IMG/VR virus record: IMGVR_UViG_3300046048_000299
Span: 1 to 34,480 of that record
DNA length: 34,480 nt
Source of the DNA: a virus
Strand: one strand, 5' to 3'
The notes beneath the pieces are model-generated. The model was not told the DNA's origin, did no database searches, and worked only from the letters and a program-made list of their open reading frames with translations. This document shows, one piece after another, positions 3,287 through 25,089 of the stretch. How positions within the stretch are numbered: the stretch's first letter is position 1; each line of letters starts with the position of its first letter. Made by a program: the position numbers and the translations under genes.

Positions 3287-3328
3287 TTTTACCCCCTTGG
3301 TTGAATTAATAATGTATTGTTAATTACT

Positions 3329-3357
3329 AAATTAATTGCCATTGGCTATATTGTCAA
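3329..3357 (-). promoter_or_regulatory. Candidate sigma-70 promoter of the early operon
   Basis: On the minus strand a perfect TTGACA (3357-3352) is followed after 17 bases by TAATTT (3334-3329), a weak -10. The expected start is about 35-40 bases before the ATG at 3286. The weak -10 and the operator-like repeats across it fit a regulated promoter. Confidence 0.45.
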
Positions 3358-3376
3358 CAAGAAAAATGCCATTGGA
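3338..3376. promoter_or_regulatory. Pair of GCCATTGG operator-like repeats
   Basis: GCCATTGGC (3338-3346), a perfect palindrome around one base, lies between the -35 and -10. A second copy, GCCATTGGA (3368-3376), lies upstream of the -35, exactly 30 bp away, about three helical turns, in the same orientation. This is the layout expected for a dimeric repressor that blocks the promoter; the Xre-like protein of the same operon is the natural candidate. Confidence 0.45.
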
Positions 3377-3394
3377 AATAACTTACTCCATTTG

Positions 3395-3483
3395 CCTAAC
3401 AAGGGCTCAGCTGACGCCGGCAAACAACAACTAGGCGAAATTGCTATATATAATGTTTTTGAATGGAGTAGAAAAACCTAACA
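3395..3483 (+). repeat. 89-bp intergenic element, copy 1
   Basis: Bounded at both ends by CCTAACA. Aligned without gaps against the minus-strand copy at 18574-18486 it matches at about 62 of 89 positions, mostly in four blocks: CCTAACA, CTGA(C/G)GCCGGCAAACAA, AATGGAGTA and ACCTAACA. The middle is AT-rich and diverged, with TATAAT at 3449-3454 on the plus strand. An outer 9-bp inverted repeat, TACTCCATT (3384-3392) and AATGGAGTA (3462-3470), occurs in this copy. It lies between the late terminator and the early promoter; function unknown. Confidence 0.7.
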
Positions 3484-3490
3484 AAAAAAG

Positions 3491-3525
3491 ATAAAAAAAC
3501 CCCGGACCGACTACCGGCCGCGGGG
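3491..3525 (-). terminator. Rho-independent terminator at the end of the late operon
   Basis: On the minus strand CCCCG (pairing 3521-3525 with 3500-3504) encloses an inner GC-rich stem with CCG/CGG pairs, followed by TTTTTTTATC and another T run. It lies just after the stop of the DUF5675 gene at 3562, so it closes the structural and lysis transcript before the early promoter. Confidence 0.85.
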
Positions 3526-3561
3526 TAAAAGGCGTTAACCAAGAGGGGCGTTTGCCTTTTT

Positions 3562-3963
3562 TTAGTATTGTTCAATAACGGTTAAATGTGCCGTTTGGTC
3601 GGTTGCCAAACGCATTAGAAATAAATTAAAAGTCGACCCGGAATTCAAAACGGCCCGTTGTCCTCGTAATTTCCCGACGGTCGAACCCAACAAAATGCAA
3701 CCCTCGGTATGCTCGGCGGTATTCCCTGGGTGAAATAAAACATTGTCCCGCCCTGGGACGTCCTCAATAATCCAGGTTTCCCCATGTTTAGCGGAAACGT
3801 GGGGATGGCATAAATATTGTTGCGCCGGAATGCTCGACCGGTTCCGTTCGTTTAGGCGGTCCGACGGTTCCAACGTATAACAAAAAACCTCTTTGTCTAT
3901 TTTCAGGACCCCGACGGTACCTTGCCGCGTTTCCTCCAATCTAACTAATTCTAAAACTCGCAT
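3562..3963 (-). CDS. DUF5675 family protein, candidate peptidoglycan-active lysis enzyme
   Basis: This 133-residue protein matches the DUF5675 pattern: RVLELVRLEETRQGTVGVL at the start, the CYTLEPSDR segment, SIPAQQY, and the strongly conserved HPGNTAEHTEGCILLG. His78 and Cys89 in that last motif resemble the His/Ser-His-Gly-Cys active site of L,D-transpeptidase (YkuD-like) folds; this resemblance is my reading. The family is found in many phages, often near lysis genes, and its activity is not established to my knowledge. It is the last gene of the lysis cassette, starts directly after the stop of a membrane protein, and no other endolysin is visible in the genome. It is therefore the best endolysin candidate. 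Confidence 0.8.
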   Translation of the reverse strand: MRVLELVRLEETRQGTVGVLKIDKEVFCYTLEPSDRLNERNRSSIPAQQYLCHPHVSAKHGETWIIEDVPGRDNVLFHPGNTAEHTEGCILLGSTVGKLRGQRAVLNSGSTFNLFLMRLATDQTAHLTVIEQY

Positions 3964-4311
3964 TTATTCGATTCCCAAAACCACTTTAATTTTATATGCA
4001 ATGCCAAGAAACAAGGCCCCGACCCCCAGGGTACAAACGACAATAACAATTGTCATTAACCCCCTATTGGCGAACTTTTGCAAATCCTGGCCGAAATTTA
4101 TACCTTTACGGAATTGGTTAACCTGTTCGGGTTTGTCTACGTCGACGCCCATAATTTCAAAAACACGCTTAACTGCCCGGTCCGCGGCGACCTGGGGTTC
4201 GACGCAACCCGCAATTGGGCAACGCCTTTCAATATACCGACGTTCGGGGTAAATGCGCCCGTCTTCGCCGACGTATGTTTCAAGGGGCCGCAATTGGTTT
4301 TCGTTGCTCAT
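3964..4311 (-). CDS. Membrane protein of the lysis cassette, holin-like (115 aa)
   Basis: The start at 4311 (MSNENQLRPLETYVG) overlaps the upstream stop as ATGA, which sets it; a reading from 4353 adds 14 basic residues with no ribosome site. Residues about 1-80 are soluble and charged, with a short CPIAGC pair and ADRAVKRVFEIMGVDVD. One membrane segment follows near the C-terminus (GLMTIVIVVCTLGVGALFLG). This layout, a conserved soluble part with a single C-terminal anchor, resembles DUF6127-like phage membrane proteins. The position between the spanin gene and the DUF5675 gene suggests a holin, pinholin or anti-holin role. Confidence 0.7.
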   Translation of the reverse strand: MSNENQLRPLETYVGEDGRIYPERRYIERRCPIAGCVEPQVAADRAVKRVFEIMGVDVDKPEQVNQFRKGINFGQDLQKFANRGLMTIVIVVCTLGVGALFLGIAYKIKVVLGIE

Positions 4312-4565
4312 AAGTCCGAATCGTCCCTTTCGCAATCGCCTAACGCTTGGCAATGGTGCCTTAATTGGTTAAACCACGCCCACGTTTCCGGGTGTTTATA
4401 TTTATCCTGGAAAGGCGCCAATTCCCGCTTAACGGCGTCATTCGGCCGCGGGAAATGCGGACAATGTGCCGACCGGGTACTACAACCGGTCAAGGGGATT
4501 GTCAACAAAAGGACTATTATTAATTTCGTTGTCCTCGTTAGCATCCTGGGCCGCCTGTTTGTCAA
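4308..4565 (-). CDS. Outer-membrane lipoprotein spanin, Rz1-like
   Basis: A basic N-terminus followed by KLIIVLLLTIPLTGC gives a signal peptide with an LTGC lipobox, so the protein should be a lipoprotein with the lipidated Cys at about residue 28. The mature part is about 58 residues with two Cys pairs. The gene begins inside the upstream Rz-like gene in another frame (overlap 4480-4565), the classical Rz/Rz1 arrangement. A second in-frame ATG at 4544 (MLTRTTKLI) would give a shorter, more typical signal peptide and may be the true start. O-spanins join the inner-membrane spanin to fuse the two membranes in the last step of lysis. Confidence 0.75.
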   Translation of the reverse strand: MTNRRPRMLTRTTKLIIVLLLTIPLTGCSTRSAHCPHFPRPNDAVKRELAPFQDKYKHPETWAWFNQLRHHCQALGDCERDDSDL

Positions 4566-4659
4566 TTTTGGCCTTTGCTTGCCGTTGCCCTATCCTATAT
4601 ATAAATATAGCAGAGGCGATAAGGACAACGACAAGCAAAAGAACAAGTAAAAGGGTCAT
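4480..4659 (-). CDS. Inner-membrane spanin-like protein, Rz-like (59 aa)
   Basis: A 59-residue protein starts at 4659 in a TAATG overlap with the upstream holin-like gene. An N-terminal membrane segment, MTLLLVLLLVVVLIASAIF, is followed by a charged helical tail with RQAKAKIDKQAAQDANEDNE. The topology (N-terminal anchor, periplasmic helix) and the overlap with a lipoprotein gene in another frame point to an i-spanin. It is short for an Rz protein, whose periplasmic part is usually over 100 residues, so it may be a small variant. The alternative is a DUF2681-like small membrane protein. Confidence 0.65.
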   Translation of the reverse strand: MTLLLVLLLVVVLIASAIFIYRIGQRQAKAKIDKQAAQDANEDNEINNSPFVDNPLDRL

Positions 4660-4838
4660 TATTCGGTTTTGCTCATTGCAACGCGAATGCCGAAAATACC
4701 CAACCCGGCCGCAATAGAGGCGATACCCTCGGCCAATACGTCAAAAATATTGCCGTTGTATATGCCCGCCGCAATAATGCCAAGGCCCGTTAATATAAGG
4801 CCGATACCGCCAATTTTTCCTTTATATCCTTCCAACAT
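4659..4838 (-). CDS. Small membrane protein, holin-like (59 aa)
   Basis: The gene starts MLEGYKGKIGGIGL at 4838 with a CAGGGGGT Shine-Dalgarno. Two hydrophobic stretches, residues about 9-27 (IGLILTGLGIIAAGIY) and about 39-54 (IASIAAGLGIFGIRVA), are separated by a short polar loop. The ending FGIRVAMSKTE resembles the LGIRHAIEK tail of small phage membrane proteins found next to lysis genes. It is the first gene of the lysis cassette and is coupled to the Rz-like gene, so a holin role is likely but unproven. Confidence 0.7.
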   Translation of the reverse strand: MLEGYKGKIGGIGLILTGLGIIAAGIYNGNIFDVLAEGIASIAAGLGIFGIRVAMSKTE

Positions 4839-4861
4839 AATTTTTTACCCCCTGTTTTGTT

Positions 4862-5206
4862 TTAAACCGCGACCAAATTATCAACGTAAAAAGTCGCCCT
4901 ATCTTTTATCGGCAAACCCGACCCGTTGTTGCTGTTATAGGTCCCTTCGATTGTAAAAACTCTTAATTCCGAATCGCCGGTCCCTAAAATTTGTAGGTCG
5001 GCGCCTTTCAGGACTATGACATTTTCTTCGGCCGGGGTTGAAACTTCGACGTCGGCGCGGCTGTTAATAACCTTGCCGTTTGCGTCGGTCAACGTCCACG
5101 TTAGGGTCGCGGGGATAACCGCCGTATCGTCCTCGTCGGTTATTGCGACCGTTATTATAAAGGTCGATTGTTCCCGCGCCCGCGCGTCTAGTGCAATTGC
5201 GGCCAT
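4862..5206 (-). CDS. Minor virion protein with an Ig-like strand pattern (114 aa)
   Basis: Start MAAIALDARAREQSTFIITVAITDEDD with an AAGGGGG Shine-Dalgarno. The chain is almost all alternating strands (FIITVAITDED, ATLTWTLTDANGKVIN, NVIVLKGADLQIL, RVFTIEGTYNS, DRATFYVDNLVAV), the pattern of one Ig-like or beta-sandwich domain of the type used on phage virion surfaces. It follows the fibre and a small minor structural gene and precedes the lysis cassette. I infer a fibre accessory or decoration protein. Confidence 0.65.
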   Translation of the reverse strand: MAAIALDARAREQSTFIITVAITDEDDTAVIPATLTWTLTDANGKVINSRADVEVSTPAEENVIVLKGADLQILGTGDSELRVFTIEGTYNSNNGSGLPIKDRATFYVDNLVAV

Positions 5207-5234
5207 AATTAACCCCCTTTTAGTTAAGGTTTAA

Positions 5235-5675
5235 TTATGCGGACGCTAAAGTAAATATGCCGGAACCATGGAATTCAACCGTAAACGTTCCGTTGCTAGT
5301 CGAAATTTGGCCGCCGAAATCAATTAGACAAACCAACCCGTTATTTGAGTCGGTATAGTCATAAATTGCGGCCCAATATGCGCTTATTGTCGACCCGGTC
5401 CATTGCACGTCGGGCGCGTCAAACGTTGTCGTTCCGCTTGATTCATTCCAGGTAGAGGCGCCAATCGTTTTTCCGCCGGTTACATAACCCGTCCCGGACG
5501 CCTCGGTAAAATCCGCGGTCAATGCAACGCCCGCCCCGCCGGTATCATAACTTTGATAAGTCGCGGCCGGTGTAGACGCGTCGTTAAACAAGGCGATATA
5601 AAATGTATCGTCGTCCATGTCAAACGTTCCGTCGCCTATCCATTCAGTTAACTTGTTAAATAGTAAATCCGCCAT
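5235..5675 (-). CDS. Minor tail or fibre-associated protein (146 aa)
   Basis: Starts MADLLFNKLTEWIGDG with the best classical Shine-Dalgarno in the genome, AGGAGG. The sequence follows a pattern seen in many phage tail-region proteins: a short N-terminal helix (LFNKLTEWIG), then FYIALFNDAS, a Thr/Gly-rich sheet (GYVTGGKTIGASTWNESSGTT), and a final Ig-like part (AYWAAIYDY, VCLIDFGGQIS). Proteins of this shape are usually annotated as minor tail or fibre proteins of unknown role. It sits directly after the large repeat fibre. Confidence 0.65.
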   Translation of the reverse strand: MADLLFNKLTEWIGDGTFDMDDDTFYIALFNDASTPAATYQSYDTGGAGVALTADFTEASGTGYVTGGKTIGASTWNESSGTTTFDAPDVQWTGSTISAYWAAIYDYTDSNNGLVCLIDFGGQISTSNGTFTVEFHGSGIFTLASA

Positions 5676-5689
5676 TTCCTTTTTTCCTC

Positions 5690-8671
5690 CTATGAGTTAG
5701 TTATTATTGCCTTTGGGCGTTTGCTTGCGAAACTTATTTCCGGCGCCGTCGGGGTATACGATACCCCAGGCGCTTTTCCTTCTATATTAAACGTTATAAC
5801 ATTGCCATATAAAACACTTGTAACCGTCGCGTGATATTGCGTTATTTCCAAATTTAAAAGGGTCGCCGTTATTTTCGAATCGGCCTTAACGGACGCCGCG
5901 AACTGGCTTAATTCTAAAGATAACGGCGCAACCTGGGCGAACGTTGAACCGGCCTTAATTAATGCCGCATATTGCGTCAATTCGGCGACCAATGGCGCCG
6001 GTATGGTATGGGTCGCGTGTAATTGTCCGACGCCCTGGGCCGCATATTGTGTTAATTCAAGCGCAAGGGCCGCGGGGACCGTATGTTTAGAGTCCGCCTT
6101 AATTGTCGGCGCATATTGCGCTATTTCAAGGGATTGCGGCGCGGCAACCTGGAAAGTTTGGCCGGTTAGCACCTGGGCCGCATATTGCGTCAATTCAAGC
6201 GCAAGAGGGGCCGCAACGGTATGTTTCGCGTCGGCTTTTATTGTCGGGCTATATTGGGTTATTTCTAACGCCTGGGGCGCCTGGACGGTATGCGTTGCGT
6301 CCCCCTGGGTTTGGCCGGTCGCATGATAAAGAGTAATTTCTAACGCCTGGGCCGCGGCAACCTGGAAAAGAGAATCGGCTTTTATTGTTGGCGCATATTG
6401 CGTTAATTGCAATTCCAGGACCGCCGGGACGGTATGCGTTACGTTCCCGGTTGCTGACGCCGTCGCATGGTATAGGGTAATTTCCAACGCAAGGGCGGCC
6501 GCTACCGTATGGGCGGAGTCGGCTTTTATTGTCGGCGCATATTGCGTTAATTCTAAGTCCTGGGCGGTTGCCGTATGTTTTGCGTCGGCCTTAATGGTCG
6601 GTGCAAATTGCGTTAATTCCAGGGAAAGAGGGGCGGCGACCGTATGCGTTGCGTCAACCTTTGCCGTTGCCGCGTATTGTGTCAACTCCAACGCCTGGAC
6701 CGCGGCGACCGAATGGGTAACGTTTGCCCGCCCCGTTGCCGGATATTGCGTTAATTCTAATGCCTGGACCGCCTGGACTGTAAAGGTTTGTCCCGCGTTT
6801 GCCGTTGCCTGGAATTGGGTTATTTCAAGGGACAACGGCGCGGCGACTATATGTTTTACGTCGGCCTTAACGGTTGGCGCATATTGCGTTATTGCTAAGT
6901 CCTGGACGGTCGCCGTATGCTTTACGTCGGCTTTTACAGTCGGCGAATATTGGGTTAATTCCAATGCCTGGGCCGCCTGGACTGTAAAGGTTATTCCCGC
7001 GTTTGCGGTTGCCTGGAATTGGGTTATTTCAAGGGACAACGGCGCCGAAACCGCAAAAGTCGAATCGGCCTTAATGGTTGGCGAATATTGGGTTAATTCC
7101 AAAAATTGCGGGGACCCTACAACGTGGACCGAATCGGCTTTAATCGTGGCGACGTTTTGGGTCAATTCCAACGCCTGGACCGCGGTTACTGTATGCGTCG
7201 CGTTTGTTTGGCCGGACCCGGTCGCGTGATATTGCGTTAACTCTAATGCCTGGGCCGAACCGGTAAATTTAGCATCCGCCTTTATGGTCGGGCTAAATTG
7301 CGTCAATTCTAGCGATTGCGGGGCGGTTATGGTAAACGTTGCGTTGACTTTCGCGGTTGCCGGATATTGCGTTAACTCTAATGCCTGGGCCGCCGAAACC
7401 GTATGTTTTGCGTCGGCCTTAATCGTGGCGGCGTTTTGAGTTAACTCTAATGCCTGGACCGCCTGGACCGTATGCGTTGCGTCCCCCCCTCCCGACGGTT
7501 CGTAAGTCCCGGCGATTATCGCGTCAAAATCGTCTGAATTTTTAACAATGTTCCAAACGACCGTAGTATCTAAAATGCCGAATAACTCGTAATCATAATC
7601 AGAAAAACGCAAGTCTGACGTTGTCGTCGAATAATTGGCGCCGGTCCCTGACGTATTAACAATTTTTGATTGTGCAAGATGGTCATAAACTTGTAACGTC
7701 CAACCGCCGGAACCATCATGCGTGAACATTAAAGAGTACGGAGTATCAGTATCAACGGAATAACTGTCGGTAATGGTTCCGTCGCTATCTGTTATGCTTA
7801 TGACGGCCCCGTCGGTAACTTCAATCATTATGCCCGTACTAACGGGCCACGCGTCGGGACCATGCCAATAAATAACGTTTCTTGTTGCAAACGTCCAAAT
7901 AATAAACGACGTGAAAATCGTAAATGTCGTCCCTGACTTAAATGGGTAATTAGACGATAAATTGGCGTTTGTCCTTTGTAGCCAAGAATCGGGGTAAAAC
8001 GAAACACTCTTTTCCCCGTATGCTGAACTATACCCTGAAAGGACAGTCCCGCCGCCAAGGGTTAAATCGTTCCCGTTGTCCGACTGGTCGGTATAGTCGC
8101 TTTCAAAATCCCACCAACCGCAAAGGCCGTCGTCGTCTGTAAAGTCGTTTTCCTCTTGCGCGATAAATAAATATGCGCTTATGGCAGTCGAAACATAGGC
8201 GGTATAGGTTTGATTGTATAAACGGAACTCGTAAAGGTCGTTTAAGTCGGCGCCCGAAACGTCAACCGCGAATTGTATTTCCGTTTCGTAATCGTCCGCA
8301 AGGTTAATCGAATCGCAAGTCGCGGCGTTTTCGACTTCCTCGCCATTTTGCCAACTGTCCCCCTGGGTTGACGTCCGGCGGTTTGCTTCGGTTAATGCGT
8401 TCCCGTTTGTTAATACTGTACTGGAACTTCGTTTTAAATCCCCGGTCGTGCCTAATGCGGTCCATGAACCGGAGTCCGTTATATTGCGCCAATGTAATGT
8501 ATATTGACTTGCAACGGTATCTTTGCCGCCTGAATGAATACAAACCGCGACAATAATATGCGGGTTTGTTACAAGACGCGAAACGTTGCCGTTATCATCT
8601 CCACTAAGGTCATTCCGGCTTGCGTCTAAAATCCGCCAACCGCCCAATTGTGAATAATAAGTCGTTGCCAT
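5690..8671 (-). CDS. Large tail fibre / adhesin with LamG-like domain and tandem repeats (993 aa)
   Basis: Three regions can be seen. Residues about 1-175 form a sheet-rich N-terminal domain with IIVAVCIHSGGKDTVASQYT and RRTSTQGDSW. Residues about 180-395 look like a concanavalin-A/LamG jelly roll (GLCGWWDFESDYTDQSDNGN, FTIFTSFI, GGWTLQVYD). From about 397 on there are about 24 degenerate copies of a 23-residue unit with consensus LELTQYAPTIKAD, ending in a short C-terminal domain with ISFASKRPKAIITNS. I infer a long fibre in which the repeats form a rod and the lectin-like domain binds glycan. The start overlaps the YkgJ-like gene as TAATG. Repeat number may vary between relatives by recombination. 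Confidence 0.8.
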   Translation of the reverse strand: MATTYYSQLGGWRILDASRNDLSGDDNGNVSRLVTNPHIIVAVCIHSGGKDTVASQYTLHWRNITDSGSWTALGTTGDLKRSSSTVLTNGNALTEANRRTSTQGDSWQNGEEVENAATCDSINLADDYETEIQFAVDVSGADLNDLYEFRLYNQTYTAYVSTAISAYLFIAQEENDFTDDDGLCGWWDFESDYTDQSDNGNDLTLGGGTVLSGYSSAYGEKSVSFYPDSWLQRTNANLSSNYPFKSGTTFTIFTSFIIWTFATRNVIYWHGPDAWPVSTGIMIEVTDGAVISITDSDGTITDSYSVDTDTPYSLMFTHDGSGGWTLQVYDHLAQSKIVNTSGTGANYSTTTSDLRFSDYDYELFGILDTTVVWNIVKNSDDFDAIIAGTYEPSGGGDATHTVQAVQALELTQNAATIKADAKHTVSAAQALELTQYPATAKVNATFTITAPQSLELTQFSPTIKADAKFTGSAQALELTQYHATGSGQTNATHTVTAVQALELTQNVATIKADSVHVVGSPQFLELTQYSPTIKADSTFAVSAPLSLEITQFQATANAGITFTVQAAQALELTQYSPTVKADVKHTATVQDLAITQYAPTVKADVKHIVAAPLSLEITQFQATANAGQTFTVQAVQALELTQYPATGRANVTHSVAAVQALELTQYAATAKVDATHTVAAPLSLELTQFAPTIKADAKHTATAQDLELTQYAPTIKADSAHTVAAALALEITLYHATASATGNVTHTVPAVLELQLTQYAPTIKADSLFQVAAAQALEITLYHATGQTQGDATHTVQAPQALEITQYSPTIKADAKHTVAAPLALELTQYAAQVLTGQTFQVAAPQSLEIAQYAPTIKADSKHTVPAALALELTQYAAQGVGQLHATHTIPAPLVAELTQYAALIKAGSTFAQVAPLSLELSQFAASVKADSKITATLLNLEITQYHATVTSVLYGNVITFNIEGKAPGVSYTPTAPEISFASKRPKAIITNS
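5810..7480 (-). repeat. Tandem degenerate ~69-bp coding repeats (about 24 units)
   Basis: Units of 66-75 bp encode L-E-(L/I)-T-Q-(Y/F)-x-(A/P)-T followed by KAD and HTV(A/P)A. Successive units are related but not identical, and some pairs share long near-identical stretches (for example the units around 6780-6850 and 6980-7050), which points to repeated duplication within the gene. Such arrays are prone to copy-number change. Confidence 0.9.
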
Positions 8672-8988
8672 TATTCGACCGCTTTCATTATTGATTTACA
8701 ATCGGCTAATTTCGATTCCGCAATACAGCAAATATAGGGGCGCATGGGCCAATCGTTACAAATTTTTATCCCGTTGCCGTCGTCTAACAACCTGTCGCAT
8801 TTTATTTTTTCGCAACATTTCCCGCATTTGACGCAACGCGAAACCTTAACGCGCAAAACGTCGTCGCATGGTGTATAACTTGCCAAATGCTCAACCCCTG
8901 CCATAATATCAATTACTGCCATGCTCGCCCATTCGGGGATAAAAAACGACCTTTCCCGGCCGTCGTCGGATTGAAAAATTATTTTCAT
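8671..8988 (-). CDS. YkgJ-like cysteine-cluster protein (105 aa)
   Basis: The start at 8988 (MKIIFQSDDGRERSFF) overlaps the upstream stop as ATGA. Residues about 50-95 hold RCVKCGKCCEKIKC, then CNDWPMRPYICC, the signature of the YkgJ family (CxxCGxCC, then C near an RPxxC motif), which is predicted to bind zinc or an iron-sulfur cluster. A final Cys lies in LADCK. YkgJ-like proteins are common in bacteria with no agreed biochemical role. Finding one inside a tail-fibre cluster is unusual. It could modify or mature the neighbouring fibre proteins, but that is speculation. Confidence 0.75.
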   Translation of the reverse strand: MKIIFQSDDGRERSFFIPEWASMAVIDIMAGVEHLASYTPCDDVLRVKVSRCVKCGKCCEKIKCDRLLDDGNGIKICNDWPMRPYICCIAESKLADCKSIMKAVE

Positions 8989-10676
8989 TGCGGACAATAT
9001 GCCCCTAATGTGTTTCCGGTGTTTTGGTTCAATGTTACCGAACCGCCCGCGCCAAACGTTGAACTCGTATCTATGCAATAATCATAAACACCCGACAAAC
9101 TCGCGCCCCCCGATTCCGCCGGGGACCCAACCGTTAGGCGCAAATCCGACGCCGATTCGAATTCCGGGTCGTCGGCAATGTCGTTCGCCTCGCCCGCGTA
9201 TGAAGAACCATAACCGTTTAAATCGAAATCGTCTTCATACATATTATAACCGCCGGTTATTACGTCGGTCCCGGTAATGTAATTCCATAAAATAACGTCG
9301 CCGCCCGACCCGGCATTTATGACAATATTGTTTTGAAACGTCGCGGCGTCCGAACTGTTAACAAGGCCCAATTGCACCGCATAACCCGACCCGGTTGTCC
9401 TAACGGTATTTTGTGTTATGTTCCAACCGCCTAACGTTCCCCAAATGCCCGTCCCGTTCCAATTTTCTATTATATTTCCGTATGTTTTGTTGTCGCATGG
9501 TCCGTTGCTGGCCCCGCTACAATATGTGTACTCGTATTCGTTATGCGTGATTGCCGAACCGCCTTGCCAACCGGCGCCGCCTTTTGTTTTTATATAATTA
9601 TACCTGACGATATTATCATGCGTCCAGGGTTGCCCGCCCGCCTTAATTCCGTTCCCGTCGCCCCAATCCGAACCGTTGTCGGTTATTGTCCCGGTATCTA
9701 TCAAATTGTATTGAATCGTTACTTGCGAACAACCATAAACGTCTATGTCGTCGTCGGGGTAACTTTTTATTGTGTTATATTCAATAGTTACATTTGAATA
9801 ATCGTCGTATGTCGCGCCGCCCGCGTTACAGTTAATCCCGTCCGCTATCCAATTACAACCGCAAGACGCCGAACGGGTACCGCCCGTCATATTGTTATTG
9901 CTAACTGTCCCGTAGGTTGCGCTTTCATGGGTGCCATTCCCAATTACAATGCCCAACGCCACATTGCTGATTGTGTTATTTGTGTAGGTAAAATAATTCG
10001 CGCCGTCCGAACTAATCCCGTAATTCTGCCCGTCGGTCCCGGTATCGCCCGTTATTATGCAACTATCTATTGTTACATAGTCCCCGGTCGGCCCCCAACC
10101 AAGGAAAAACCCAAACCCGCTATTTGTATCGTTAACTTTTACCGTTATTTGGTCGTTGCAATACCATTCTATATAATCTTCTTGGATATAAATGGTCGTG
10201 TTTTCCGACCATCCCGAACCGTCGGAAATGTCAAACGTTACGGTATCGCCTGGGTATGGTAAAAACAAAACCGGTTTTCCGCTAATCCCTGTATAATTTG
10301 ACAAACCCGCAATCCATAATTGCGCGGTAAATGTCCCGTCGTCGTCTTTTATGTAAATTCTATCGTTCGGGCCTATTAACCCGTCGTCCGAATCGACATT
10401 AGCCCAATTTGCATTTGTGTTTATGTCGTCAACGTCAAAAGCGCCGGTACAACTGTCCGTTTCCGGGGCGCCTCCCCCGCCCGACGCGCAAAGGTAAAAT
10501 GTTTCGGTCGCGCCGCCCCCTGGTAATGTCGTCGTTGTGGTTGCCGGGACGGTTGTTGTTGTCGTCCCCCCGCCGCTATCAGAACCGCCCGAAATAAACA
10601 ACGTACCCCAACCAAACGCAAGAGTCGGCAAGAACAACAAAAGACAAATCGCGCATATTTTTTTTATTAATTCCAC
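8985..10676 (-). CDS. Secreted right-handed beta-helix protein, tail-spike or carbohydrate-active
   Basis: A signal peptide (ELIKKICAICLLLFLPTLAF) is followed by a Thr/Pro linker (TTTTTVPATTTTTLPGG) and about 480 residues of Asn/Gly/Thr-rich short strands (NYFTYTNNTISNV, YSNVTIEYNTIKSY, IQYNLIDTGTITDN) typical of parallel beta-helix (PbH1) folds such as pectate lyases, alginate epimerases and phage spikes. I chose the GTG start at 10676, which begins the signal peptide behind GGGCGG; an ATG at 10703 adds nine residues and has no ribosome site. No catalytic residues can be assigned by eye. It may be a tail spike or a secreted, lysogeny-linked enzyme or adhesin. TTTTTLP linkers are common in some environmental Proteobacteria. 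Confidence 0.7.
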   Translation of the reverse strand: MELIKKICAICLLLFLPTLAFGWGTLFISGGSDSGGGTTTTTVPATTTTTLPGGGATETFYLCASGGGGAPETDSCTGAFDVDDINTNANWANVDSDDGLIGPNDRIYIKDDDGTFTAQLWIAGLSNYTGISGKPVLFLPYPGDTVTFDISDGSGWSENTTIYIQEDYIEWYCNDQITVKVNDTNSGFGFFLGWGPTGDYVTIDSCIITGDTGTDGQNYGISSDGANYFTYTNNTISNVALGIVIGNGTHESATYGTVSNNNMTGGTRSASCGCNWIADGINCNAGGATYDDYSNVTIEYNTIKSYPDDDIDVYGCSQVTIQYNLIDTGTITDNGSDWGDGNGIKAGGQPWTHDNIVRYNYIKTKGGAGWQGGSAITHNEYEYTYCSGASNGPCDNKTYGNIIENWNGTGIWGTLGGWNITQNTVRTTGSGYAVQLGLVNSSDAATFQNNIVINAGSGGDVILWNYITGTDVITGGYNMYEDDFDLNGYGSSYAGEANDIADDPEFESASDLRLTVGSPAESGGASLSGVYDYCIDTSSTFGAGGSVTLNQNTGNTLGAYCPQ

Positions 10677-11281
10677 GTTCCGCCCTGCCCCAATGTTAAC
10701 CATTCAGTCGTAGAAATTCCCATTAAACAAATAAATTCTCCGACCGCGCCCGAACTTGCTACCGCGGTCCCGGCCCCTTGCGAAACACCGTCAAGTAATA
10801 TTAATTCCGTTCCGTTCGGGTCCAACGTTATAATTTGGGCGACGTCCCCGGCGGCAAAACAACAATTTAACCCGGCCACGACGTCCGGCAAATCAAACTC
10901 AATTGCGGCGGTTCCCCCGTTTAAGTGCATTGTCCCTTGGCATTCGGCGGTTGTTACCGTATGGGTTGCGTCGGAATAGGCATAAATTTTCAAACTCGCC
11001 CGCAAGTCCCCAGTTATAAGAAAATTTCCGCTACCGTCCGGGGTTATACCGTCCGATTCGTAAATTATATTTGTTGAATCGGAAAGGTTTGTCGAACTCA
11101 TACCCTTGGCAAGATTACCAATCGTTACTTTGCGGTCCGCCGCCGAACCCGACGGGTTGTTTATGGTGTAAACAATATCATCCGACGTCGGGGTCGTATC
11201 TTCGGTTAAATCCTTTATGGTATCCGCCGCGACTAACGACGCCGATAATAAAATTAAAATCGCAATTATTAGTTTTCGCAT
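10667..11281 (-). CDS. Fibre-like protein with a Sec signal peptide (204 aa)
   Basis: The ATG at 11281 follows GGGGG by six bases and starts MRKLIIAILILLSASLVAADT, a clear signal peptide with cleavage after AxA-like residues. The mature part begins IKDLTEDTTPTSDDIVYTIN, a pattern typical of phage fibre N-terminal segments (an IKDLTE motif before polar repeats). It ends in a compact sheet domain, with GLNCCFAAGDVAQIITLDPNG and TTEWLTLGQGGTWN, as in C-terminal fibre domains. A signal peptide on a fibre-like protein is odd for a virion component. It lies between the tail hub and the beta-helix protein. Confidence 0.7.
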   Translation of the reverse strand: MRKLIIAILILLSASLVAADTIKDLTEDTTPTSDDIVYTINNPSGSAADRKVTIGNLAKGMSSTNLSDSTNIIYESDGITPDGSGNFLITGDLRASLKIYAYSDATHTVTTAECQGTMHLNGGTAAIEFDLPDVVAGLNCCFAAGDVAQIITLDPNGTELILLDGVSQGAGTAVASSGAVGEFICLMGISTTEWLTLGQGGTWN

Positions 11282-11283
11282 TT

Positions 11284-12966
11284 TCAACCCCCGACTAAGT
11301 CAATTCTTTTCCCGCTTTCCATTTCAACAAAACCGCCCCCGACCAATTCCAAATAGCCGCGCCGCAAAACCCCTATAGACTTGTTAGGATTTATTCGCCA
11401 AAATAACAATTTTGCGGTGCCGTTGCTTGAAAAACTCCGTTCTATGCAAATAAAATTTTCGTCTTGCCAACCACTTTCCCCGACGGGACAAGTTATGGCG
11501 ACGCAATCGCCCTCTAAAATGTCCCATGCTAACCACGCCTCAACCGCAAAACTTAATAAGTCGTGCCGGAACGCGAAAAAATCGCGATACCGTCTTAAAA
11601 TATGGAACGCGACGCCCTCGCCGTCTTGCCCGACTTCGGACATTTCAATAATTTTTTTTCGGCGTCCGTAAATTTGCTCAGACAATTTAAGCAAATAATC
11701 GTTTTCGTGGTTTAACAACGCGTTACCGCCGTATGTATTTTTCCAGGGTTTATAATAATATCGGCCGTAAAGGTAATTACAAATTAGGTCCTCCGGGGTC
11801 CTGGTAATTTCTACGTCGGAAATTGCGTCGTTATCCGTATCAATTGACGCGGTTGGGGTCCGGTTTATATCAAACGCCGTAAAAGAAACTTTCCCGCCCC
11901 TTTGCAAATAACTTATAAAAAATTGTTCGGAAAACCTGTTTAGTATAGTTGTTATATTTTCTTCATTAATTATTGCGGTCGCGACTTTTAACCCTGGGGT
12001 TCGCTGTTTCGCCTCCAATGCGCTCGCCCGGTCCACTTTGTTCTTTTTAATGTCGGAATAATTTGTTAGCAAATGCAAAGAAACCGCGGCCGGATGTTCT
12101 ATTAAATTATCCGCGTCGGAACTGCCCCCGGTAAACTCCCCGTTGTCATAATAGCCCCTTGCGCTTGCAAAGTATGGCGGGTTATAAGTCCCCTCTAACG
12201 TCGCCCACGAATTATCGTGGTTGATAACTGTTACCGGAAAATTCTTGCGGTCTATAACTTCGATTAATTCATAATTCGCCGCCGACAATGCCGTCCCGTC
12301 GGAGTCGACAATTTCGACTTCCCCGCCGGTATAGTCTGCGTCGACTGACAAGATTTTCCCGGCCGCCAAAATAAAAACATAATCAAGGGTATTCCCGCCG
12401 ATTGAACGTGAATCGTCGTCGACGTAATAAATGGGAAAATAAGGTTTGTTCCCGTAAACAATAGGGTATGGCGCGTTTTCTGAACTTGGTTGCGCTGTTA
12501 TGTCGTCCCAACGGTCGCCGGAAATAAACGGAACCGCGCAAATGGAAAGGTTTTTAGTAAAGTCGTTAATAGTTATTTTATAGTTTTTCCTGGAATACCT
12601 GTCGACCTGGATATTTCCGCAAAAAACAATCCCGTTTTTTTGAATGTCGGCATAATCCAAACCGGCGGCATAAATGAAACAAGTAGCCTCGGCGCCGTCC
12701 AAAAACGTTTGACTATCCTGGAACCTGTCATTATTAGATAACGAAAGGGAAACATAACTTACGGAATAACGCATAGTCCGAAAGTCAAAACGGTTCCCGA
12801 CCCAATAATGATTTAATATTTTCCCCTCGACTAAAATGTCGCTACCGGCCGAATTTGGTATAACAAACGTCGCATTTGAGAAATATTTTTTTGTCCCCCG
12901 GTCGTCTATTTCCCAAACGAAATAAATTGTCTTATTTGTTCTTAATACGTCGGCAACGTATGACAT
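11284..12966 (-). CDS. Tail hub / baseplate protein (560 aa)
   Basis: The protein follows the tail-tip component downstream of the tape measure. Early strands (TIYFVWEIDDRGTKKYFS, FDFRTMRYSVSYVSLSLS) and the later ILEGDCVAITCPVGESGWQDENF and LLFWRINPNKS segments match the pattern of phage tail hub proteins of the gp27/Tal type, where the LEGDxV strand is characteristic. The C-terminal 40 residues (RGYLELVGGGFVEMESGKRI) look like a separate contact region. It overlaps no neighbour: start ATG at 12966 right after the upstream stop, with AGAGG upstream. Its likely job is to close the tail tube and carry the fibres. Confidence 0.65.
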   Translation of the reverse strand: MSYVADVLRTNKTIYFVWEIDDRGTKKYFSNATFVIPNSAGSDILVEGKILNHYWVGNRFDFRTMRYSVSYVSLSLSNNDRFQDSQTFLDGAEATCFIYAAGLDYADIQKNGIVFCGNIQVDRYSRKNYKITINDFTKNLSICAVPFISGDRWDDITAQPSSENAPYPIVYGNKPYFPIYYVDDDSRSIGGNTLDYVFILAAGKILSVDADYTGGEVEIVDSDGTALSAANYELIEVIDRKNFPVTVINHDNSWATLEGTYNPPYFASARGYYDNGEFTGGSSDADNLIEHPAAVSLHLLTNYSDIKKNKVDRASALEAKQRTPGLKVATAIINEENITTILNRFSEQFFISYLQRGGKVSFTAFDINRTPTASIDTDNDAISDVEITRTPEDLICNYLYGRYYYKPWKNTYGGNALLNHENDYLLKLSEQIYGRRKKIIEMSEVGQDGEGVAFHILRRYRDFFAFRHDLLSFAVEAWLAWDILEGDCVAITCPVGESGWQDENFICIERSFSSNGTAKLLFWRINPNKSIGVLRRGYLELVGGGFVEMESGKRIDLVGG

Positions 12967-15450
12967 TTAAGGGACCTCTGTTAATTCGAAAGAAACGTGA
13001 TATTTGTCATTAACCCAATGCCTTTGCTCAATGTCCCCCATGTTTTTAACTAAATAACTTTTCCAGGCAATCGCGGAGTCCGGGACAAAACAAATATTTT
13101 GTCCGCCGTCAATAAACCGGGACATTGCAATAATTTGGTCCCGCGTATCCTGTGAACATTTCCAATTAAGGGACCATTCGCGAACCGGCGGCCCGCTTCT
13201 TATCGGGAATATGCCGCCGCCTGAATTCCTGTTATAATCTACGTTTGGCCGTTGCGTTAGGTTAAACCCATTGTCGGGCGTCCGCGTTAATGTAATATCC
13301 ATCCCCGCGACCAATGAACCAATTTTGTAAAACCCCTCCGCGGTTGTTTGCGTTTCAATCAAAATCATTAAATAACGCCCATTGGCCCCGGTAAACGACT
13401 TGTAAGAATTGCCGCCGAAAATTGCGATTGCGTCCCCGTCGTGAAAGTCGTTTGTTATATCGCCCTCTAGGTACAATTTGCCGCCCAAATTGTATTTTAT
13501 TTTATAGGTATTGCCCGCCTCCGAACCGCCGCCGCCATTGTCTACGCCCCGCAAATAGGCCCCCGACAATTCAAAATCGGCAAAATCAGTTATTGCCGTC
13601 GGAACGTCAATATAACCCGAATCGGTTGTTTCGACGTCGCCGGTTGCAATGTCAAAACTAACTGTTTGATTAATGGTAGGGGTTCCGAAACTGTCGTCGG
13701 CCGCCTGTTTAATGGTTAATTGCCTTACGTTGCAACCGAACAAACCAACGGCGTTAATAAAATTTCCGTATGTTTCTCCCAGGTCAAAAAATATGGCGGC
13801 GTCGACGCTATCGCCGGTTGTCCTAAACTGTTTGGCGGGCGAATCGGACAAGATATTTTTAGGCGCAAACAAAAAGTCCGGGCCAAACGTCCAAATATCG
13901 CCGTCGCGACCGTTGCCCCCATACCATTGAACGTCGATATTATTTATTAGTCTTTGTTTTAATGCGTTCATCGGGACATAACAGTCGTTTGTTCCTTCGC
14001 TATAGGTTAACCAATGTCCCCTTTTATATAACTTCAATGTATTATTGCTTCGGTCAATTACGGTTAAAATCGCCGAATGACCGTCGGGAAACGAAAGGCC
14101 GCACGAATTATATGTCCCGCCACTTGGCCCCGAAATTACTTGGTCCGCCGACCACGTTTCGCCGCCGTCGTCCGACATTGAATAAAGGTACGTCGAATCG
14201 GTAACATTTACCGCAACGCAATATATGTCGCCGTTAAGGTCAACGATTGCCGACGGGTACGATACCGCGTCGGGGTTGTCTGCAATTACTGGCCCTTCGT
14301 CGTCAACCCAAACGCCGCTTGCTTCGTCAAAATATGTAAAATAAATTTCGTTGTAACTTGTCGGGACTGTCCTGTAAAAAAACATTAAACCATAAGGGCC
14401 GGACGAATAAATAAAATTACCCCCGTAAATTGTAGAAACCCCTATGCGGGTCGCCATTGTAACCGGACTTCCCCAGGTCAATCCGTTATCGTAAGAATGG
14501 ACCGCCATACAATATAAGAAAGTCCCGCCGTGATAGGCGCCCAACAAATACCCGTCGGGGTGTTCAAAAATTGAATGGCAAGACGTATTCCCGTAAAAAT
14601 CGACCCTTTGCCAAGTCGCGCCGTTATTGTCTGAATAATATATATATAAATACGCACTAACGAAAATTCGCCCGGACGTCGGGCTAATATATGCGGTATA
14701 AACAGATAAGTTATAAGTCCCAGGGATAACCGTAAAAGACGACCACGTCAACCCCCCGTCAATACTTGTTTTATAACCCGCATAATTCGCCGAATTTTGA
14801 TAAAACAAAAACCATGTCCCGTCGTTTGCGACAATAACCGGTAAACTATAATGTGCGTAGTCTTTGACGTCGTCCGCGACTTCTACTCCGCCGTACCATG
14901 TTGTTCCGTCCAATGTTTCCCGGCCTAAATACGTTGTCCCGCCATTATGGGACCATCTAAAAGAGGCGTTTTGCGGGTCGCCGCCGTTGGTCAATTCTAG
15001 TATTATGTCCCGGCTTATATAGGGAATTGTTATCGTATATGATACGCCTGAAACTATTTGCGCCGAAAACGCCGCGGTCGTTATTGTCCCGGTCGACCTA
15101 ACATAGTCGGAAATGTCTTTTGTTTCCCCGGACGCCGCCCCGGAATTAATAGTAACTTTTCCGCCTATCAAAAAGTCGTCGCCAATAAATTTTAATTCGG
15201 CCGACGTATCGACAACGGTTGTACCGCCAACGGCGCCATTAGTGGTTGTTGTCCCGCTAAATGTAAAATCGCCTATCCCCAAATTGCTTGAACAAACGGG
15301 GCGCAAATTTCCCAAATTACTATTAGACGGCGTCGGTTGCCTGACGAATGGGTTTGCCGGTATTGCGTTGTCGTCAACCTGGGCCACGTCTTGGTTAAAA
15401 AATGACATTTCGGGCGTCAAACTTTTTCCAACAATTAATTTCGTAGTCAT
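12967..15450 (-). CDS. Tail-tip protein with Asp-box (BNR, sialidase-like) beta-propeller (827 aa)
   Basis: Residues about 150-480 contain four clear Asp boxes of the form S-x-D-x-G-x-T-W: at about 229-236 (SIDGGLTW), 273-280 (SDNNGATW), 319-326 (SYDNGLTW) and 426-433 (SDDGGETW); a weaker one lies near 167. This spacing is that of a six-bladed sialidase-type propeller. I cannot locate the catalytic Arg triad or a FRIP motif, so activity is unproven, and Asp boxes also occur in non-enzymatic propellers. The C-terminal 160 residues (REWSLNWKCSQDTRDQI, ICFVPDSAIAWKSYLVKNM) resemble distal-tail/minor-tail domains. It is the first gene after the tape measure, the usual place of the distal tail protein, so the propeller appears built into a tail-tip protein. 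Confidence 0.7.
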   Translation of the reverse strand: MTTKLIVGKSLTPEMSFFNQDVAQVDDNAIPANPFVRQPTPSNSNLGNLRPVCSSNLGIGDFTFSGTTTTNGAVGGTTVVDTSAELKFIGDDFLIGGKVTINSGAASGETKDISDYVRSTGTITTAAFSAQIVSGVSYTITIPYISRDIILELTNGGDPQNASFRWSHNGGTTYLGRETLDGTTWYGGVEVADDVKDYAHYSLPVIVANDGTWFLFYQNSANYAGYKTSIDGGLTWSSFTVIPGTYNLSVYTAYISPTSGRIFVSAYLYIYYSDNNGATWQRVDFYGNTSCHSIFEHPDGYLLGAYHGGTFLYCMAVHSYDNGLTWGSPVTMATRIGVSTIYGGNFIYSSGPYGLMFFYRTVPTSYNEIYFTYFDEASGVWVDDEGPVIADNPDAVSYPSAIVDLNGDIYCVAVNVTDSTYLYSMSDDGGETWSADQVISGPSGGTYNSCGLSFPDGHSAILTVIDRSNNTLKLYKRGHWLTYSEGTNDCYVPMNALKQRLINNIDVQWYGGNGRDGDIWTFGPDFLFAPKNILSDSPAKQFRTTGDSVDAAIFFDLGETYGNFINAVGLFGCNVRQLTIKQAADDSFGTPTINQTVSFDIATGDVETTDSGYIDVPTAITDFADFELSGAYLRGVDNGGGGSEAGNTYKIKYNLGGKLYLEGDITNDFHDGDAIAIFGGNSYKSFTGANGRYLMILIETQTTAEGFYKIGSLVAGMDITLTRTPDNGFNLTQRPNVDYNRNSGGGIFPIRSGPPVREWSLNWKCSQDTRDQIIAMSRFIDGGQNICFVPDSAIAWKSYLVKNMGDIEQRHWVNDKYHVSFELTEVP

Positions 15451-15453
15451 AAC

Positions 15454-17955
15454 TTACCCCAAATTATAGGCGCCTCCGGTGTTTATGGCATTAATAACTT
15501 CCGTAATAAATTCTTCTTGCGTTACGGACCCGTAGACGTTGACGGTTATATTTTTTCCCAATTCCTTTTCGAATGCCTGTTCTATTAAAAGGTTCAATTT
15601 GTCTAAATAAGCGGGTATTTCTTCAACCGTTTGAATCGACCCTAACGCCTGTGGGCTAAATTCGAATTGGTCTATTCCTAATTCCTTTGCGACCCCCTCC
15701 CAATAATCGAAAATCGGGGTTAAAAGCGCGTTCATTGCATTGACAACTTCCGGGTTTGCTCCGCCCTGGCCCCAGGCGTAATTTTCGCCACTTGGCCCTT
15801 GCTGAAAATCCCAAAATGGTTCCCACCGGGCGTCGCTAAATATATCCGGCTCATTCCAATACATTAATTGAAAATCCCCGGCGTCGTTTAGCCCGAAACG
15901 GCCGCCATAAGAACCGAAATTTATACCGGGGTCCTCACCGAATACCTTCCATAAGGCATAAATCATACCGGCAATTGGTACGCCGACCGCGGCCGCCGCG
16001 CCGAAACCGGCTCCCGCCGCCGCCCCGCCGCCCATTGTGCTAACACCGCCACCGACAACCGTCCCCGTTGCCCCTGGGACCGGCAACGCAATCGTAGTAC
16101 CAACGGCCGCCGCCCCCGCGCCCGCCGCCGTTCCTGTTATCGCGGCCCCAATATCACTAAGAACCCCCGACGCGCCGGATAATAAACCGCCGGTCAATGT
16201 GTCCCCCATGTCGACCGCAAAATCCCCAATCAATGAACCAAGGGACGTAAAACCTTCGCCGAATGAATTAAAAATTTCGCTAAATATGTTTTTTGTCGCC
16301 CATTCGACCAACATTTGCGCCAAAATATCGCTAAAGGCCCATAACATAGAGTCTAGCAACGCCTCCCATGCGTCGCCAATGTCCTCAAAATCGCCTTTTA
16401 AAACCGCGAAAAAAGTATCCTGAATCGCATTTTTTGAATTGCGGGCGAATTCCGTTGAAATATAGGCCCCTTTTTCGGCCCAGGTTAATTGCCAATCCTG
16501 GACGTCGTCGAACCCTAATTTTAACCCGTCAAAAAATGTCCCGAACTCTAACGTTTGCGCCCGTAATTGTTCTTTTGTGTTATATGTTTGTTCGGCCAAT
16601 CCGTCGTTATATGCCTTGTTGACGTCCTTTGCGCCCTCTTTTGTATAAACGAAAAAGTCGTCGAATGCCCCCGATTGTTGATTTACCTGGGCTTGTTGGA
16701 ATTCGGTCATATTCTCAAAAGAGTTATAATATTCCGATTGCATTTCCCCCAGGCCCTTAATGGTAGTCGTAAACAGGTCGTCGAACGCGTCCTCGGCGAC
16801 GTTATATTGTTTTTCCTGGGCTTTTGTTGCCGCGATAATTTCTTCGGTTGCGCTGTTACTCGCGTCTATTGTTTTCCCAATTGACGCGGTATAGGTTTCG
16901 ACGGCCTTTGTCGCAAGGTCCTGGCGCTCCGTTATTTGCATTAGGTCGTCGGTTAAATCGGACGTCATAAGGTCGGCCGCGGCCCGGAATTCCCCGACTG
17001 AATCTTCTAAAATATCAAACGGGTTATTATCAATGGCCCCCAATTTTTTTAGTCCTTCGAACAAAAGGTCTAACGGTGCGAATAGGGTACGCAACCCGAT
17101 TAACAGGTTTTCGATACCATGCGCGATTAATGAAACCGCGGCGGCCCCCGTTACTTTTAATGCGGCCCAACCTTTTTCGAACCAACCCAGGGCGTTAATT
17201 GCCGACGTAATCGCGGCCGGTAAATTGTCTTTCGCCCACGTCGCAAGGCGCGTTAATTGCGGGGTAAACTCTACGACAATTGTTTGCGTCAACCCCATAA
17301 ATTGACCTTTTAGGCGGGTTAAAGAGTCATTAAACGCGGCAATATTATTCGCCCCTTGTTGGGATAACGTTAACCCTAACTCGTTCGCCTCTTGCCGCAT
17401 TGCTTGAATACCGGCGGCGCCGTCCTCCATCATTGCTAAAACGCCGGTCCCCCTCGCGCCGAATAGTTTTTCCGCCAAACGGACCCGGTCGGCGTCATTG
17501 GCAACGCCCCGCAACGCCTCGGCCAAAACTTCGAACATTTGTTCCGGGCGTAAATTTTTCAATCTTTGCGCGTCGACGCCCAATTCGGCCAAAATGTCGG
17601 CGCTTGCTTTCATTCCGCTTGCACCTTCGGATGTAACGCGTATCATTTGTTGCAATGCTTTTGAAAGGGTCGTGAACTGGACCCCCGAAAGGTCGGCGGC
17701 GTGTTTTAACTGGCTCAACGCCTCCGTTGATATGCCAAGGCGGGACGACAATTTATGTATTTCGTCGCCTGTTTTGAGAACGTCGCGGGCCATAATGCCA
17801 AATGCGGCGGTTCCGGCCGCGGCCATTGCCGCAAGGCCGGTCCCGACAATTTGGGCGCCTTTCCTTAACCCATTTAACCCGCTTTCAACCTTTGAAAATG
17901 CGGCCGCGGTTTTGTCCTGGGCTTTTATGTCGAACTTAACGTCGGAAAATGCCAT
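15454..17955 (-). CDS. Tail tape measure protein (833 aa)
   Basis: The N-terminus (MAFSDVKFDIKAQDKTAAAFSKVESGLNGL) and the KLSSRLGISTEALSQLKHAADL segment are typical of tape measure proteins of the lambda gpH/P2 gpT type. Hydrophobic, Ala/Gly-rich segments lie at about 37-55 and about 585-650, as needed for DNA passage and membrane insertion. The rest is helical. By the usual rule of about 0.15 nm per residue it would measure a tail near 125 nm; this is an estimate from the family. The gene starts inside the end of the -1 frame of the chaperone gene, the standard order G, GT, tape measure. Confidence 0.92.
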   Translation of the reverse strand: MAFSDVKFDIKAQDKTAAAFSKVESGLNGLRKGAQIVGTGLAAMAAAGTAAFGIMARDVLKTGDEIHKLSSRLGISTEALSQLKHAADLSGVQFTTLSKALQQMIRVTSEGASGMKASADILAELGVDAQRLKNLRPEQMFEVLAEALRGVANDADRVRLAEKLFGARGTGVLAMMEDGAAGIQAMRQEANELGLTLSQQGANNIAAFNDSLTRLKGQFMGLTQTIVVEFTPQLTRLATWAKDNLPAAITSAINALGWFEKGWAALKVTGAAAVSLIAHGIENLLIGLRTLFAPLDLLFEGLKKLGAIDNNPFDILEDSVGEFRAAADLMTSDLTDDLMQITERQDLATKAVETYTASIGKTIDASNSATEEIIAATKAQEKQYNVAEDAFDDLFTTTIKGLGEMQSEYYNSFENMTEFQQAQVNQQSGAFDDFFVYTKEGAKDVNKAYNDGLAEQTYNTKEQLRAQTLEFGTFFDGLKLGFDDVQDWQLTWAEKGAYISTEFARNSKNAIQDTFFAVLKGDFEDIGDAWEALLDSMLWAFSDILAQMLVEWATKNIFSEIFNSFGEGFTSLGSLIGDFAVDMGDTLTGGLLSGASGVLSDIGAAITGTAAGAGAAAVGTTIALPVPGATGTVVGGGVSTMGGGAAAGAGFGAAAAVGVPIAGMIYALWKVFGEDPGINFGSYGGRFGLNDAGDFQLMYWNEPDIFSDARWEPFWDFQQGPSGENYAWGQGGANPEVVNAMNALLTPIFDYWEGVAKELGIDQFEFSPQALGSIQTVEEIPAYLDKLNLLIEQAFEKELGKNITVNVYGSVTQEEFITEVINAINTGGAYNLG

Positions 17956-18465
17956 TTTTGGCCGCCTCTATTTTCTTTTTTTGCGCGGTTGCTATTTTGT
18001 TAAAATAAATTTTCCATATTAACATTTCGCCGTCGCCCATAACCTGGGACAATTCTTGAATTGACCGGCCCCATTTGTCGCAAAGCAAAAGAAAAAAACG
18101 GACGTCGGGGTCGTCCGCAATTACTCCCCCAGGTCGTCGCTAATCGCCTCGACTTTTTTCAGGCTATGATTAATTATATCCCCCGCAACCCGCAAGACGA
18201 CTTCGGCGTCTAGTTTTAATTTTATGGTTTTCAGGTCCGCCAACGAAAACAAACGGTTGCCGTCTTTGTCCCTTGCCGCATGAACCAACGTCCGCGCCGC
18301 GCCGTCGAAATTGTCCGTTGCGTTCTTAGTAATTAATCCGCGGTCCTGTAAATTAAGTTTTTTAAAATAAATCGGCGCCCCCCATTCCGGGACGTCCAAT
18401 TCGACTAAGTCGCCGATACTTGTTGCGGCTATAATCTTTTCTAAAAACTCGTTCCTTTCCGCCAT
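17936..18465 (-). CDS. Tail assembly chaperone GT fusion made by predicted -1 frameshift (about 176 aa)
   Basis: The chaperone reading frame ends at 18121. A -1 shift at the preceding run of five G residues gives GGA-GTA-ATT and continues for about 63 codons to a TAA at 17936. The extension begins VIADDPDVRFFLLLCDKWGR and contains SIQELSQVMGDGEMLIWKIYF, the pattern of T-domains of tail chaperones (small hydrophobic helix, W-x-x-Y/F). This frame has no start codon with a ribosome site, so a frameshift is the best explanation. The T part should bind the tape measure, whose gene overlaps its end. Lambda G/GT uses the same logic. Confidence 0.7.
18121..18132 (-). other. Predicted -1 ribosomal frameshift site
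   Basis: On the minus strand the last codons are CTG GGG GAG TAA. The run of five G residues (18130-18126) lets the GGG-decoding tRNA slip back one base with perfect re-pairing. The stop codon immediately after would favour a pause. The usual lambda heptamer (GGGAAAG) is absent, so this is a single-tRNA slip in my reading. Confidence 0.5.
18121..18465 (-). CDS. Tail assembly chaperone, gpG-like (114 aa)
   Basis: Start MAERNEFLEKIIAATSIGD with an AAGAGGGG Shine-Dalgarno. It lies between the tail tube gene and the tape measure, the fixed place of tail assembly chaperones. The central DVPEWGAPIYFKKLNLQDRG and the C-terminal helix TIKLKLDAEVVLRVAGDII match the usual pattern of the G domain in this family, where a DVPEWG element is common. 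The frame ends DDLGE just after a G-run at which a -1 shift is predicted. Confidence 0.85.
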   Translation of the reverse strand: MAERNEFLEKIIAATSIGDLVELDVPEWGAPIYFKKLNLQDRGLITKNATDNFDGAARTLVHAARDKDGNRLFSLADLKTIKLKLDAEVVLRVAGDIINHSLKKVEAISDDLGE

Positions 18466-18485
18466 GCGTTACCCCTCTTGTTAGT

Positions 18486-18574
18486 TGTTAGGTAATTTTA
18501 CTCCATTTTAAGAAACAAAATGCAATAAAATCAACTATTTATTGTTTGCCGGCCTCAGCTCGGAAAATGTTAGG
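18486..18574 (-). repeat. 89-bp intergenic element, copy 2
   Basis: Minus-strand partner of the element at 3395-3483, with the same length and no gaps, bounded by CCTAACA at both ends (18574-18568 and 18492-18486). The blocks CTGAGGCCGGCAAACAA and AATGGAGTA are shared; the middle is AT-rich and diverged. It fills the gap between the tail tube gene and the chaperone gene and ends just before the chaperone ribosome site. A promoter, protein-binding or recombination site are all possible. Confidence 0.7.
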
Positions 18575-18580
18575 AAAAAA

Positions 18581-25071: not shown

Positions 25072-25089
25072 AAAAGAGCTTGACAAAGT

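Follow-up and report, generated by a model that had tools for sequence, protein, structure and literature searches.

Intercistronic RNase III hairpins are known in phages from T7 and from lambda sib, and integron attC sites combine inverted end boxes (RYYYAAC ... GTTRRRY) with a strand-specific hairpin. In phage HK022 two similar short RNA elements, putL and putR, lie in one genome and are each predicted to form two bulged stem-loops (PMC9378689, in the part of that article considered here). Mycobacteriophage stoperators are described, in the part of the source used here, as short sites that recur in intergenic gaps at a distance from the early promoter (PMC9283540). Here we analyze an 89-base-pair (bp) element that occurs twice, in opposite orientation, in the virus record IMGVR_UViG_3300046048_000299, the whole of which (34,480 bases) forms the stretch analyzed, denoted as the window. 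We favor, at a little less than an even chance, the reading that its two copies, A and B, are copies of a structured RNA signal that acts at copy B, between two tail genes.

As far as the cited part of the HK022 article goes, the put RNAs come closest to the element in form, as the window also holds two similar copies, which could each form two stem-loops. When this two-stem-loop arrangement is sought in the window, the second hairpin is supported in B, the first is weak, and A prefers another fold in its context. The put RNAs follow early promoters and have the same sense as the genes they serve, whereas B lies between late genes and A on the plus strand, and for this difference in position we do not file the element as a put RNA. 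Antitermination by put RNA works through the zinc-binding domain of the RNA polymerase β′ subunit; such a role for the window element would be hypothetical. The stoperators, as described, are numerous short DNA sites, in contrast to two 89-bp copies with strand-specific pairing. Copy B resembles the RNase III hairpins in being an interrupted hairpin of ~20 bp between late genes; its cleavage would be hypothetical. To our knowledge, the phage RNase III hairpins include no equivalent of the second, opposite-strand copy. The ends of the element also resemble the RYYYAAC box of attC sites, and a strand-specific hairpin is common to both; we reject an attC site, as both ends carry CCTAACA in direct orientation where the consensus requires inverted boxes.

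An inverted pair of non-coding elements

The two copies and the parts of the predicted fold are located as follows.

3395..3483, plus strand: copy A, 89 bp, within the gap 3287-3561 and opposite in sense to all genes
18486..18574, minus strand: copy B, 89 bp, in mRNA sense, separating the genes for the major tail protein and the tail assembly chaperone
3462..3470, plus strand: AATGGAGTA in A, invariant 3′ strand of hairpin 2
18499..18507, minus strand: AATGGAGTA in B, invariant 3′ strand of hairpin 2
3410..3421, plus strand: hairpin 1 of A (GCUG-ANGC-CGGC; columns 16-27), from the RNAalifold consensus, invariant
3432..3480, plus strand: hairpin 2 of A (columns 38-86), interrupted stem, from the consensus, with a low probability when A is folded in context
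18548..18559, minus strand: hairpin 1 of B (columns 16-27), from the consensus, pair probability in B alone 0.12
18489..18537, minus strand: hairpin 2 of B (columns 38-86), pair probabilities 0.84-1.0
3383..3393, plus strand: TTACTCCATTT, left of A and beside A only, forming 9 bp with A's own AATGGAGTA and competing with hairpin 2

Copies A (3395-3483, plus) and B (18574-18486, minus) align without gaps at 62 of 89 positions, as a preliminary description of this DNA had reported, and a repeat finder stretches the pair to 94 nucleotides (nt) at 70% identity (3391-3484 / 18485-18578); no inverted pair in the window is longer. The motif CCTAACA, which that description had placed at the conserved ends, is present at either end of both copies in direct orientation with a fixed spacing of 82 bp. 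The blocks AGCTGAnGCCGGCAAACAA and AATGGAGTA are common to A and B; AATGGAGTA has three copies, in both orientations, and AATGGAG occurs three times in the window, every time within or beside A and B.

The similarity is far beyond chance. The best ungapped score of one gap against the other was 38, compared with a maximum of 19 in 2000 dinucleotide shuffles, and a Gumbel fit gives ~4e-7 after window correction. Only 3 of 133 sequences of at least 10 kilobases (kb), a control set that includes the window itself and some near-duplicates, contain inverted pairs more than 500 bp apart at an expect value (E) below 1e-4, and the window's pair is the longest and strongest.

Both copies occupy the largest intergenic gaps of their regions (A, 275 bp, 3287-3561, after the lysis-side operon and before the next gene; B, 115 bp, at the junction of the major tail protein gene with that of the tail assembly chaperone). 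This earlier observation holds, since a longer listed gap of 165 bp near B (17956-18120) is probably coding: the −1 frame is open across its 165 nt and reaches the tape measure start. Also upheld is the non-coding nature of the pair, whose mismatches fall at 10, 10 and 7 across the codon phases with no concentration in the third position; on these counts we rejected a coding relic. A template/variable pair of a diversity-generating system was rejected as well, as the mismatches are not confined to adenines; no reverse transcriptase was seen in the window, in which not every open reading frame was scanned for one.

A predicted two-hairpin fold with preserved pairing

An RNAalifold consensus computed on the two copies in their shared orientation contains 18 pairs. 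Columns 16-27 form hairpin 1, columns 38-40 pair with 84-86 in a short closing stem, and columns 47-59 pair with 65-77 in an interrupted stem. The invariant AATGGAGTA provides the 3′ strand of the interrupted stem, and the diverged AT-rich middle provides the 5′ strand and the loop. The preliminary description was right that the middle is AT-rich and diverged, and overlooked its part as a pairing arm of the hairpin. All 18 consensus pairs are kept in both copies; seven vary between them, six by one-sided changes (mostly to G-U) and one by a two-sided change.

Hairpin 2 of B alone has a z score of −4.95, and none of 1000 shuffles folds equally well. Column shuffles within the conserved and variable classes were as low in energy in 2 of 1000 trials, and when one copy was held fixed and the mismatch-column letters of the other were permuted, 2/2000 and 0/2000 reached the observed energy. 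Permuting or redrawing letters within columns 37-87 did so in 0-2 of 2000 trials. The fold was re-optimized in every null trial, so that picking the best structure gave the real pair no advantage. When the partner strand is slid by 1-3 columns, the paired cells fall from 100% to 31-50%, and over the right half of the element the opposite strand yields no consensus fold at all.

In the late mRNA, copy B would form a 49-nt interrupted hairpin, possibly with a small 5′ hairpin. B is the likely working copy, placed at a boundary where much tail protein but little of the chaperone and the tape measure has to be made, and its hairpin would most likely uncouple the abundant tail protein from the chaperone, tape measure and tail genes that follow. 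It may do so through RNA polymerase, or by influencing how the RNA is processed or how stable it is. Copy A would work only from a plus-strand transcript, as a small RNA sharing the partner of B, or may be an inactive duplicate or relic.

Several observations weigh against this reading. Only two sequences are available, with no relative, and null tests cannot compensate for a sample of two. When letters were redrawn at random columns, the observed energy was reached in 36 and 3 of 2000 trials (right half) and in 14 and 4 of 1000 (whole element), and a control that dealt the letters anew is uninformative with two rows (263/500). The energy of the whole element is ordinary relative to other 90-nt windows of the genome, and on the antisense strand the element as a whole also has a consensus, weaker and of a different fold (21-37/1000). 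Hairpin 1 is invariant, which leaves it without covariation support, and it has a probability of 0.12 in B. Copy A alone is no stabler than its shuffles (711 of 1000 as low), and in context it folds at −24.6 kcal/mol, compared with −6.7 for the shared fold, with AATGGAGTA paired to the upstream TTACTCCATTT. Finally, A faces away from every gene, and no recognizable promoter was found for it.

Copy B at the tail-gene junction

Copy B separates the following two genes.

18581..18970, minus strand: major tail protein gene (phrog_10528, E 2e-8)
18121..18465, minus strand: tail assembly chaperone gene (phrog_344, E 1.5e-7)

We measured the length of this junction in 81 of 87 related loci, the other six having been dropped where the frame ran off or no next open reading frame was present. 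The junction is −4 to 25 nt in 75 of the 81 relatives. In the remaining six, which form one near-identical lineage (L018, L020, L021, L022, L026, L033), it is 90-91 nt, and all six contain within it an int-alpA RNA (RF02996) above the Rfam gathering score (in L018, 39.1 bits at 3654-3719). The int-alpA matches in G018 and G021 were below threshold and were not confirmed on follow-up. These six relatives provide a precedent for a structured RNA at this junction. The window element occupies the same junction and differs from int-alpA in sequence and fold: neither copy matches the int-alpA covariance model, even at E up to 10, and no other Rfam family matches the element.

If copy B acts as proposed, it would place a control at the RNA level where the gene of the most abundant tail protein meets those for tail assembly, and together with the unrelated int-alpA at the same place in related phages it would suggest that tailed phages repeatedly recruit structured RNAs there. 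In the literature on RNAs at tail-gene junctions, judged by titles and the opening lines of abstracts, nothing apparently related was found, which is not a claim of absence.

The chaperone gene ends in TGGGGGAG (18121-18130, minus strand), leading into 17956. The −1 frame that is open here is what would be expected of a programmed frameshift like that of lambda G/GT.

Surroundings of copy A

The gap around A contains two further features of interest.

3505..3519, minus strand: terminator-like hairpin and T run where the minus-strand operon ends, immediately before A in gene sense
3352..3357, minus strand: TTGACA, downstream of A in gene sense, between two CCAATGGCA repeats; below the scanner threshold

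The repeats CCAATGGCA lie 30 bp apart (3337-3345 and 3367-3375, minus strand), and with TTGACA they form a possible regulated promoter with operators for the operon starting at 3286. Placed between the terminator-like hairpin and this candidate promoter, A may lie in an untranscribed spacer, unless it is transcribed from the plus strand.

The preliminary description had proposed that the copies are regulated promoters, which we find unsupported. The promoter scanner reported no sigma-70-like site on either strand of gap A, and therefore no plus-strand promoter for A, and at B it reported one weak site (9 of 12 matches; one found, 1.4 expected in that 1-kb region); no sigma-70 promoter with hexamers conserved in both copies was found. 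A directional promoter in both A and B also makes little sense, because every gene is on the minus strand. A real, non-coding and probably regulatory pair is what stands of that interpretation, which had missed the hairpin. In the terminator scan no site with the GC-rich stem and T run of an intrinsic terminator was reported at A or B.

The segment TTACTCCATTT (3383-3393) is exactly complementary to 11 nt of B (18508-18498). As a pairing competitor it may reflect chance or a switch; chance is plausible because a 9-bp inverted repeat within ~100 bp is not rare.

RNA-RNA pairing between the copies

A minus-strand RNA over A pairs with the B mRNA at −83.5 kcal/mol, compared with a shuffle mean of −37.9 and a lowest shuffle of −68.3. 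Such antisense pairing is expected from any inverted repeat, and A has a terminator-like hairpin on one side and the possible next promoter on the other; for both reasons we do not favor it. A plus-strand RNA over A pairs with the B mRNA at −44.6, little better than shuffles (32 of 500 as low). It is quite improbable, in our judgment, that the copies form an RNA switch in trans, in which the 5′ segment UUACUCCAUUU of a plus-strand small RNA from A would invade the B hairpin, matching AAAUGGAGUAA perfectly over 11 nt, or remain bound to the corresponding strand of A itself, one element sensing or titrating what the other uses to set tail-gene expression. Were A such a trans-acting partner, the pair would be an unusual two-part RNA circuit.

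Searches for relatives of the element

As the preliminary description had suggested, we searched for the conserved blocks in other phages, and four exact-block scans of viral contigs returned no relative of the element. These retrieved 14 stretches with CTGANGCCGGCAAACAA, 20 with GGAGTANAANNACCTAACA, 2 with GCTGANGCCGGCAN{36,46}TGGAGTA and 57 with AATGGAGTAN{4,8}CCTAACA, none of which extends to a second block; the best match outside the window in an nhmmer search of the stretches had E 0.11 over 28 bp. Absence from such scans is weak evidence, as they may omit records very near the window. DNA similarity searches of phage records gave two 30-bp chance matches for the A gap and 10 records for B (best E 0.3), and a search of plasmids gave no match; E. 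coli genomes were not among the sequences compared.

A covariance model built from copies A and B, R1, recovers both. Its best match over the 87 loci had E 2.6; it gave no match at E 1 in 40 whole related records, and none in 4 genomes or, with stricter filters, in 385 genomes of the class of G047. Over 80 terminase loci a single match was found (L108 149-220, E 0.0018); we set it aside as chance, as it lies inside an AT-rich open reading frame that reads like ParB.

Other explanations for the pair

The main rival to a structured RNA signal, which we consider unlikely, is that the copies are DNA sites (operators, looping sites or silencer sites) recognized by a DNA-binding protein of phage or host, which contacts CCTAACA, GCTGAnGCCGGCAAACAA and AATGGAGTA across an AT-rich spacer of fixed length, the orientation of the copies being irrelevant. 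The gapless alignment, the constant distance between the CCTAACA motifs and the confinement of AATGGAG to the pair and its surroundings all fit such sites, and A, with a terminator-like hairpin on one side and the possible promoter with its CCAATGGCA repeats on the other, is in a typical place for them. DNA sites leave unexplained that the substitutions in the middle preserve pairing on one strand only, and B lies within an operon, distant from any promoter seen. Less probable still is that the copies are what is left of a duplication or of a mobile unit in decay, 82 bp long, which inserted at CCTAACA in two places, giving direct repeats, and is now functionless. The direct repeats flanking both copies agree with this, as does the gap at B, which without the unit would be ~33 nt, close to the junction of most relatives; the 70% identity suggests long divergence. 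Neutral decay, however, should erode blocks and pairing evenly, and the collections searched held no further copy.

We regard as very improbable the proposal of the preliminary description that A and B are inverted recombination sites, at which the 201-amino-acid tyrosine recombinase (1067-1672) would flip the 15-kb tail segment. The phage does encode this Pfam Phage_integrase protein, which is as short as the Fim type, and AATGGAGTA is present in both orientations; beyond the presence of a recombinase we find no support for such sites. All credible genes inside and outside the segment are on the minus strand. A flip would leave 15 kb of tail genes running opposite to the remainder of the late operon. 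The sign of the GC skew is constant except at 6-8 kb, within a repeat-rich gene, no core of two inverted arms around 6-8 bp is evident on reading, and the viral contigs yielded no relative of the recombinase.

Genome setting and other features

The record is a circular phage genome of 34 kb, from a bacterial virus, with a terminal direct repeat of 127 bp typical of circular assemblies. All credible genes are on the minus strand, and they include terminase, portal, capsid and tail genes, an O-like replication protein, a DUF5675 gene, the small tyrosine recombinase and an Xre-like regulator (portal, capsid and terminase were assigned in part by reading the translations). The closest terminases and tail proteins found are ~50% identical, and the phage therefore has no close relative in the collections searched.

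1067-1672, minus strand: tyrosine recombinase, 201 amino acids, Pfam Phage_integrase
2293-2538: Xre-type protein gene

Upstream of the recombinase gene, the gap 1673-1807 contains an inverted repeat, TACAACAT/ATGTTGTA (1686-1693 and 1703-1710), which may be an operator, and a terminator-like hairpin (1748-1775). The gene at which the GC skew changes sign encodes a 993-amino-acid protein (5690-8671, minus strand) with many degenerate repeats of ~23 residues (families D1-D7). Repeats bearing C runs are located near the terminase end of the genome (28112-28151, 28469-28508 and 28495-28534) and are perhaps related to packaging. In the gap 24941-25089, the word TATACCCCTTTT recurs.

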